DNA of 44,216 bases from an uncultured Anaerolineaceae bacterium (lineage in GTDB: Bacteria > Chloroflexota > Anaerolineae > Anaerolineales > Anaerolineaceae). The notes under the pieces were generated by a model. It saw only the letters and a program-made list of their open reading frames with translations. It searched no databases and was not told where the DNA came from. This document shows positions 20,631-21,834 of this stretch, one piece after another; the stretch's first letter is position 1; the number at the start of each line of letters is the position of its first letter. Location: positions 1-44,216 of the forward strand of contig CAKMKJ010000013.1 in the NCBI GenBank assembly GCA_927443345.1, given 5' to 3'. Made by a program: the position numbers and the translations under genes.

Positions 20631-20710
20631 ATGATCTCCCCGGTGCGAAATGCGTTGGAGTAATTATACACTTTTGGGATTTTATTAACAACCAGAGATC
20701 CGATCCACTC

Positions 20711-20738
20711 GTAAGGGCGTATAGCTATACGCCCTTAC
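20711..20738. repeat. Dispersed palindrome copy 4, containing the RAYT stop codon
   Basis: A perfect 28-bp palindrome: GTAAGGGCGTATAG and its exact complement. The transposase stop TAG (20727-20725) is in its centre, so the last residues RKGV are encoded by the palindrome arm. Confidence 0.9.
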
Positions 20739-21486
20739 GATCACTGTACTCATCATTGAGTTCCCAATTTAGAGGGTTCAAGTAAATATAATTGACAATG
20801 TTTTCGTAATCTTTTTCTGTAGAAATTATGTGCTCATAATAATTGCGCAGCCAGACCTTTTCACCTGGCGTATTTCGCATCAGATTTATCTTTTTTGTGA
20901 CGGCTGATTTATAAGCACCAATAATCGTTCCAAGTGATCCCGCTATTGGGTGACCATACCTGCCTGTGGTAAGGGCTTGGCGCGCCAAGCCCTTACCGGC
21001 TCCCAGATTCATTTCACTCGTCCTGCTGTTATGGTTTCTTTGTCCATACGCCCTTACCCTATACGCCCTTACAAGCTCGTCACCACTATTAAAATCCTTA
21101 CCCGCACAATCATCAACAAGCTCGGCACCACTATTAGAACCCTTACCCACACAATCATCAACAAGCTCGTCGCCACTACTATAACTACCGTTCTGCTTAT
21201 CGCTGTTAATAATATGCACAATCCCATGAAAGTGATTGGGCATCACCACAAATTCATCCTCCAAAACCTCTACATTTGGTCGGATTTTTTGTGTTTTTAA
21301 CCATTCCTCCCTGGCGATACGACCATACTCATTTAACCGCATTTCGCCTTCAACAATTTCACCAAAGAGATGTTCACGTTGGTGACACACCAACGTAATG
21401 AAATAACTGCCAGAAGAAGAATAATCATAATCTGGCAAGCGGATTGAACGGCGATGAAAAAGCGGTTTTTTTTTCTGATCGTTCAT
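20725..21486 (-). CDS. REP-associated tyrosine transposase (RAYT, Y1 HUH family)
   Basis: 253-residue single-stranded-DNA transposase of the IS200/IS605-like Y1 family, RAYT branch. The N-terminal RRSIRLPDYDYSSSGSYFITLVC is characteristic; the HUH motif is MPNHFHGIVHI (His 85, His 87). The probable catalytic Tyr is in GTIIGAYKSAVTKKIN (Tyr 192), and the C-terminal VWLRNYYEHIISTEKDYENIVNYIYLNPLNW is the family tail. Between the HUH motif and the tyrosine, residues about 98-175 are an insertion: two and a half copies of a 15-residue repeat, then VRAYRVRAY and GKGLARQALT encoded directly by dispersed palindromes. The gene ends inside another palindrome. RAYTs are thought to mobilise or maintain REP palindromes; this one sits in the middle of its probable substrates. 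Confidence 0.92.
   Translation of the reverse strand: MNDQKKKPLFHRRSIRLPDYDYSSSGSYFITLVCHQREHLFGEIVEGEMRLNEYGRIAREEWLKTQKIRPNVEVLEDEFVVMPNHFHGIVHIINSDKQNGSYSSGDELVDDCVGKGSNSGAELVDDCAGKDFNSGDELVRAYRVRAYGQRNHNSRTSEMNLGAGKGLARQALTTGRYGHPIAGSLGTIIGAYKSAVTKKINLMRNTPGEKVWLRNYYEHIISTEKDYENIVNYIYLNPLNWELNDEYSDRKGV
20968..20997. repeat. Dispersed palindrome copy 5, inside the RAYT coding region
   Basis: A perfect 30-bp palindrome (GGTAAGGGCTTGGCG and its complement) read in frame as GKGLARQALT, residues 164-173 of the transposase. It has the same core as copy 6 at 21811. Confidence 0.9.
21046..21072. repeat. Two tandem palindrome half-sites in the RAYT gene
   Basis: ATACGCCCTTAC occurs at 21046-21057 and 21061-21072, 15 bases apart. 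It equals one arm of the 28-bp palindrome at 20711-20738 and is translated in the other strand as VRAYRVRAY. Confidence 0.85.
21071..21185. repeat. 45-bp tandem repeat (2.5 units) in the RAYT gene
   Basis: Units at 21071-21115, 21116-21160 and a partial unit from 21161 differ at a few bases and encode SGDELVDDCVGKGSN, SGAELVDDCAGKDFN and SGDELV. The 15-codon period keeps the reading frame, so copy number can change without breaking the gene. Confidence 0.9.
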
Positions 21487-21810
21487 TTCATTATTATTCT
21501 ATATCAATTCCCCCTCTTGACTTAACAGAACATTTGTGCTATTTTAACTCTGTCATCCACCCACTCGCCACAGCATATCAACCTTAAATAATTTACAAAA
21601 TCAGGTTGTGATTCGTGCATAAAAACAAAGAAACGAATCGGATGAAATTGCAAGAATTCAAAATCAAAAAAGGATTCGTTTTCATTCGTTTTTGATTCGC
21701 GGTCTTGGCGCCCCCGAGCCGCAAAGCGGCGAGAGGGGTTCAAAACAAAGGAACGAATCAACTTAAAGAAAACCGAATATTTTCCTCGAGGGTTTTTCCG
21801 GTGTTTGAGT

Positions 21811-21834
21811 GGGCTTGGCACGCCAAGCCCCTAC
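21811..21834. repeat. Dispersed palindrome copy 6
   Basis: GGGCTTGG, a CACG centre, CCAAGCCC, then the CTAC edge. The arms match the palindrome inside the RAYT gene. Confidence 0.75.

Follow-up and report, generated by a model that had tools for sequence, protein, structure and literature searches.

Among the closest described systems is subclass 2.4 of the tnpAREP genes, in which REPs lie in frame within the gene, generally between the HuH motif and the catalytic Y (Quentin et al. 2018, PMC6006769). According to the parts of that paper drawn on here, each tnpAREP has its own REP family, double-foot REPs occur, and the region receiving the insertion is variable and regarded as a peripheral extension; tolerance in a peripheral loop is the explanation favoured there. 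In the corresponding parts of other reports, RAYTs and their cognate flanking REPs are described as coevolving (Nunvar et al. 2010, PMC2817692), and GTAG REP ends are said to give TAG stops often, with further REPs inside ORFs (Di Nocera et al. 2013, PMC3733652). The E. coli enzyme tolerates no change of GTAG, GTAC abolishes cleavage by the Stenotrophomonas enzyme, and the spread of REPs is called poorly understood in the abstract of the same paper (Corneloup et al. 2021, PMC8266576, likewise drawn on in part). The original prediction for the present locus implied that palindromes within a RAYT are an oddity; according to Quentin et al. 2018 (PMC6006769), they are typical of subclass 2.4. In-gene REPs and REP-supplied TAG stops are already known, and the main surprise of the observation is in print. 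The Rickettsia palindromic elements are another case of palindromes placed in frame within protein genes; they are dispersed over many genes and are not known to be tied to a RAYT. Like these elements, which are mentioned in PMC3733652, the palindrome described below lies in frame in a protein gene; unlike them, its host is a RAYT.

The window, i.e., the whole stretch of 44,216 nt analysed here, comes from an uncultured Anaerolineaceae bacterium. As originally predicted from the letters alone, the gene of interest (Table 1) is a REP-associated tyrosine transposase (TnpA-REP / RAYT). It matches the NCBIfam model REP_Tyr_transpos (NF047646) with an E-value of 2e-18 and 66.7 bits in two stretches, the curated cut-off being 80; a Pfam scan of the gene returned no family at E 0.001. 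E. coli TnpA-REP (PDB 4ER8) was the sole PDB sequence match at E 0.01. A Foldseek search with the AF2 model, in which 126 of 253 residues have a pLDDT of 90 or more and the core is confident, returned 4er8_A as the best match (E 8.2e-05); this match alone fell below E 0.001, and the other top matches include IS200/IS605 TnpA. The model thus has the Y1 transposase fold. In an alignment of 38 sequences, H85, H87, Y233, and N237 are invariant and P238 is nearly so, and this alignment, together with that to 4ER8, gives the HUH motif and the single catalytic Tyr in YI..NP that mark the class. The RAYT is flanked by an Eco57I-like restriction-modification gene on one side and an aldehyde ferredoxin oxidoreductase gene on the other. 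Upstream of it, a stretch rich in GATTCGT-like motifs contains two copies of AAAACAAAGRAACGAATC (21622–21639 and 21742–21759). A promoter and terminator scan gave nothing informative.

Table 1. Features of the RAYT locus, in window coordinates.
Feature	Position	Strand	Remarks
RAYT / TnpA-REP transposase gene, 253 aa	20725..21486	minus	ATG-started ORF, open through the palindromes
HUH motif PNHFH, residues 83–87	21226..21240	minus	H85 and H87 invariant in 38 sequences
Variable linker, residues 93–183	20938..21210	minus	predicted to be disordered over most of its length
45-nt tandem repeat, 2.6 copies, in linker	21071..21185	minus	
Two direct half-palindromes GTAAGGGCGTAT	21046..21072	minus	read VRAYRVRAY
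Perfect 30-bp double-foot palindrome, GTAAGGGCTTGGCG joined to CGCCAAGCCCTTAC plus one flanking pair	20968..20997		reads GKGLARQALT
Leu213, aligned to guide-contacting Q95 of E. coli TnpA-REP	20848..20850	minus	alignment
Catalytic Tyr233, Y-I-x-x-N-P motif	20788..20790	minus	alignments including 4ER8
Perfect 32-bp palindrome, CGTAT family	20709..20740		gives last residues RKGV and TAG stop (20725–20727)
Linker-palindrome core outside the gene, one foot (GGGCTTGGCACGCCAAGCCCCTAC)	21811..21834		

The protein shares with E. coli TnpA-REP the fold, the HUH motif, and the catalytic Tyr, and W94-Q95 of the latter align to W212-L213 (4ER8; PMC8266576). A guide tetranucleotide at the hairpin foot is a further common trait, although the E. 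coli REPs described in the consulted part of PMC8266576 have a bulge and one foot. With subclass 2.4 it shares a variable-length insertion between β3 and αC, an in-frame double-foot REP between HuH and Y, the NH[IFV]H motif, and a scattered occurrence across many phyla. It departs from the subclass, as far as the part of PMC6006769 used here defines it, in having WL at 212–213 for WQ, YIYLNP for YIxNNP, and feet of GTAA/TTAC rather than GT[AG]G and C[TC]AC, though the double foot is symmetric. In the RAYTs covered by the part of PMC2817692 consulted, the REPs flank the gene; here, a REP lies inside the gene and its foot is not GT(A/G)G.

Both the 30-bp palindrome and the half-sites were found in frame with the peptides originally given for them, and alignment with 4ER8 places the linker palindrome between the HUH histidines (H85, H87) and Tyr233, again as proposed. 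By arithmetic, about 4e-5 perfect palindromes of 30 bp are expected per 44 kb. The palindrome at the end of the gene had been put at 28 bp; it is indeed perfect and supplies the TAG, but it extends over 32 bp. The stop abuts its centre. Since this palindrome is located past the last conserved residues, it adds merely the short tail RKGV and the stop, and its left arm recurs as the direct repeats that make up the half-sites. REPs in frame inside genes and REP-supplied TAG stops are both found among the GTAG REPs of PMC3733652, where, in the part consulted, the host genes are those of repair, replication, and others and the TAG stands at the foot; in the window, it is the transposase that serves as host, and the TAG falls at the middle of the palindrome.

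As single-stranded DNA, the two palindrome stretches folded better than 199 and 200 of 200 shuffles, respectively, while the half-site stretch had no excess folding (174 of 200 shuffles folded equally well or better). Such a strong hairpin, of the kind that the enzyme probably recognises, could in principle serve regulation: the palindrome would fold in the mRNA or in the single-stranded DNA of the gene, and the bound enzyme would limit its own synthesis. We consider this improbable, as one would expect a conserved regulator neither to sit in mid-gene nor to be missing from roughly half the relatives.

The AF2 model assigns a pLDDT below 50 to most of residues 100–176. Because this poorly ordered stretch stands beside a confident core, an insert in the linker would be structurally cheap. 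The linker of the window gene is lengthened not only by the palindromes but also by the 45-nt tandem repeat. Matches at E 1e-5 were found in at least 34 of 61 genomes (own included), and 55 genes open through both halves, read from 69 loci among the matches listed in the own and related genomes, were taken as the sample. Their linkers span 48–273 nt, which, together with the low pLDDT, bears out the earlier suggestion that the gene tolerates insertions at a loop. A palindrome score of 12 or more was reached by 29 of the 55 linkers and by none of the 55 N-halves or 55 C-halves; with a cut-off of 9, the numbers are 34, 1, and 0. Chance or a codon effect was rejected as the source, since 36 of the 55 linkers exceed all 60 of their synonymous-codon randomisations. 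A second sample, the best 80 loci among the matches listed from named genomes, contained 78 intact genes, at least four of which (L140, L141, L160, L161) share contigs with genes of the 55; here, 31 of 78 linkers score 11 or more, versus one N-half and two C-halves. Judging from the record titles of these 78 genes, the carriers include Chloroflexi, Cyanobacteria, Bacteroidetes, Nitrospira, Desulfuromonas, and others.

The candidate view that the palindrome is unique to this gene was rejected, as linker palindromes scoring 12 or more are present in 16 of 25 genes from the same genus; it is refuted by print as well, such palindromes having been published already. Also rejected was the view that the insertion is absent in homologues, since in many of them another palindrome occupies the corresponding position. 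The insert is not simply missing from relatives: within the own genome, other palindromes are present there in the C5 and C17 paralogues and in a broken paralogue on C51.

Several RAYT regions in the collection have peculiarities of their own. Three consecutive RAYT genes with different or decayed linker palindromes occur at L013 (G000:C17:22835–25745), the first with an in-frame TGA within the palindrome. The RAYT on C51 (L015:2716–4353) is split, its C-half lying some 0.9 kb further downstream, on the far side of a 276-aa ORF that we take to resemble a carbon-nitrogen hydrolase. In the linkers of L050 and L228, one REP arm is repeated many times in tandem and in frame (DEPPLP or NELPLP) to give long expansions, as though half a REP had been amplified. 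In the linkers of L225, L227, L229, and L230, an inverted REP pair, GTAAGGGTAAAGCATT ... ATGCTTTACCCATAC, forms a REPIN-like arrangement with a loop of about 70 nt where measured. At L056 (G044:C1:155988), a REP core lies across the RAYT start codon and another is present in the linker.

These data bear on an alternative to which we assign a considerable, though less than even, probability, namely that the palindrome is a tolerated passenger. The enzyme would insert REPs everywhere, perhaps preferentially near its own gene, and selection would purge them from other genes. The disordered RAYT loop, by contrast, would accept any in-frame insert; the copy in the gene would be cognate solely as a by-product of cognate copying by the enzyme, and would be functionless. 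The predicted disorder of the loop agrees with this, as does the tolerance favoured by Quentin et al. 2018 (PMC6006769) in the part consulted. A strong palindrome is lacking in 26 of the 55 linkers and is therefore not required. The palindromes use only two reading frames (17 and 13 of 30), both stop-free; the third would give TAG from a GTAG foot. REPs also sit at the stop of three of the 55 RAYT genes. Against a mere passenger stands the distribution of the palindromes, which are found inside the gene in 30 of the 55 cases, compared with 5 within 400 nt upstream and 8 downstream, some of these flanking palindromes being non-REP or belonging to a neighbouring RAYT.

The genome provides a further measure. 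The pattern GTARGGR-N12..18-YCCYTAC occurs at 28 places in the own genome (control pattern, 1), of which 5 are in RAYT linkers, 1 is at the stop of the window gene, and 22 are elsewhere. Disordered loops are common in many other proteins. Nevertheless, only one of the 22 non-RAYT places falls within an ORF of more than 100 aa (on C84, 206 aa, no Pfam match), which again argues against simple tolerance; the remaining places are intergenic, overlap ORF ends, or lie within ORFs of less than 100 aa. A Pfam scan of seven ORFs at non-RAYT pattern places gave no match at 0.01. At one place in this genome (L017, G000:C9:11405), a CGTAT-family palindrome covers the final four bases of a 140-aa ORF, and its GTAA foot furnishes the TAA stop.

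In a test over 16 genomes, 18 of 26 RAYT-borne palindromes had a copy elsewhere in their own genome, a copy being defined as lying within one difference over 10 inner bases. The expectation from other genomes is 3.9, and none of 10,000 permutations, which ignore relatedness, reached 18. The RAYT-borne palindromes were counted as 27, or 28 with G028:C6:25022, which had been filed as near; three of the 27 sit in RAYTs outside the 55, two of which are broken. Nine non-symmetric places were dropped, and G003, which has one exact additional copy of its core, could not enter. The other 8 of the 26 had no near match in their own genome under the pattern used. For the window, the first pattern had suggested that the linker palindrome has no dispersed copies; this was rejected when a relaxed search recovered a match, the core GGGCTTGGCRYGCCAAGCCC being present, at up to two mismatches, 10 times in this genome if the linker and 21811 are counted, against none for the control. 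Relaxed searching also covered two more of the eight, G001 and G007:C2:549, and gave only two-mismatch variants for these. The original prediction had hinged on other copies of the palindrome being present in the genome, and the 10 core places supply them. The association with a palindrome repeated in the genome, a feature of the class, thus holds here too, and the intragenic palindrome is usually one of the REP families of its own genome. Of two close orthologues, 77% identical in the gene core, G007:C2:266 has the palindrome core GCGCAGCG and G012:C15:70970 has GCACAGCG, two compensated pairs apart. The three further copies in G012 show the G012 core on one arm or both, and a single variant in G007 has the G007 core on one arm. 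Separately, the palindrome GTAGGGATAATTCATGAATTATCCCTAC occurs three times in G028 (C41:42974, 43190, and 43406) at an exact spacing of 216 bp, forming an array of a REP-bearing unit.

The way in which the palindromes change is informative. In 11 genes that have the peptide following the palindrome in common and were picked for being palindromic, all 154 of 154 pairs hold; 24 changes fall in both arms and none in one arm alone. Among half-sites in the same frame that differ at one to five positions, both-arm and one-arm changes number 555 and 61, although these pairs are not independent. A count made blind to DNA used 18 genes from several phyla, chosen by the peptide after the palindrome; 14 of them, differing in core, reach a score of 12 or more at the corresponding position, two score 9–10, and two score 7. 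Such retention of a palindrome with different cores also speaks against the passenger explanation. Five gene pairs, picked for similar palindromes and not all independent, share 28 of 28 nt in the palindrome, while the surrounding core has 67–72% DNA identity and its synonymous codons match at 44–62%. Either DNA-level selection or continued copying from the REP pool of the genome accounts for this identity. It is very unlikely, in our judgement, that the palindrome persists for its peptide, i.e., that its translation makes a useful linker. Some related genes do keep the palindrome with an identical peptide (VGAYSHTPLR, GRGSLQRTPT), but the five pairs are identical at synonymous positions too, and the both-arm changes alter the peptide while preserving the palindrome.

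The foot of the window palindrome is GTAA instead of GTAG, and Leu213 takes the place of the Gln found at the aligned E. coli position, Q95. On the tree, the closest relatives within the own genome (C5 and C17:25185) have WQ and GTAG feet. Thirty of the 55 genes bear a palindrome scoring 11 or more; in these, Gln213 goes with G at guide base 4 in 26 of 26 and Leu213 with A or C in 4 of 4. With the residue-213 column left out, the trees scatter the Leu genes over three positions and imply five changes between Gln and not-Gln. A view of three independent Leu changes was set aside, however, as the trees are compatible with a single Leu clade (p-AU 0.90 for the quick tree, for which the constrained tree scored even better, and 0.39 for the careful tree), and the Leu rule may therefore reflect a single event. 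A search for Leu213 in 396 genomes of the class returned only the window gene and one broken gene with mixed feet, so the rule rests on four intact genes.

His213 is present in the broken C51 paralogue (feet GTAA/GTAA), in G028:C132 (GTAC/GTAT), and in G022:C33, which has no readable foot. A search for the His motif in 400 genomes of the order found it at 11 places spread over 9 genomes; eight of the places are new, and six of these eight have no G at base 4 in the readable feet. All six belong to one genus and five have a common REP, so that they perhaps represent one or two events; two of them (L226 and L229) have no in-frame HUH, nor does L221, a His gene with mixed feet. L228, with His213 and GTAG/GTAG, is a clear counterexample. 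Mixed feet were seen with His, Leu, and Gln (L154, L219, L221, L198). Automatic foot calling, blind to the residue, parsed 128 of 134 genes (six unparsed) and gave for Gln 70 G, 8 not G, 3 mixed, and 35 none; for Leu 4 not G; and for His 2 G, 5 not G, and 1 none. Some of the non-G Gln calls are miscalls, e.g., G037:C30, whose real foot is GTAG. The p-values are 1.7e-6 and, without the directed search, 2.3e-4, relatedness being ignored in both. On these sequences, guide base 4 appears to track the residue aligned to E. coli Q95, with His mostly accompanied by non-G. The description of the palindromes as probable substrates of the enzyme gains from this covariation and from the 10 core places.

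A search of titles and abstracts in the open-licence literature found no report of covariation between guide base and residue, and the part of Quentin et al. 2018 (PMC6006769) drawn on here contains no test of the intragenic copy or of Q95 covariation. Nor did we find in print the match to the cognate family, the both-arm changes, the 28/28 nt identity, or the GTAA/Leu variant.

The explanation that we prefer, at a probability just short of even, is that this TnpA-REP carries its own cognate REP, a symmetric double-foot palindrome, in the disordered loop between HUH and Tyr, with a second REP at its stop. It builds on the observed position and frame of the palindrome, its recurrence in homologues, its match to genomic REPs, the changes in both arms, and the covariation of guide base 4 with one residue. 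The enzyme would cleave and copy the linker palindrome while the gene is single-stranded, as during replication, and the copies would spread to intergenic sites. The copy in the gene may be kept since enzyme and substrate are then inherited and transferred together, and a second REP family would have landed at the end of the gene, giving the TAG. The tolerated passenger described above is nearly as likely as this explanation.

More tentatively, and with the odds against it, we propose for RAYTs of this kind that they may be self-contained enzyme–substrate genes in which the linker acts as a master copy and one residue (Q95) reads guide base 4. The two parts of this joint proposal would mean, respectively, that joint inheritance is guaranteed and a new REP family is seeded after transfer, and that Gln stands for G, Leu for A or C, and His mostly for A or C. 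Should the palindrome inside the gene be what the enzyme itself acts on, every gene of this kind would be a natural enzyme–substrate pair whose code is readable from the sequence. If the code holds, specificity would be predictable from the gene and switchable by one amino acid. A small transposase without flanking ends could, if all this is true, keep its substrate alongside it through horizontal transfer.
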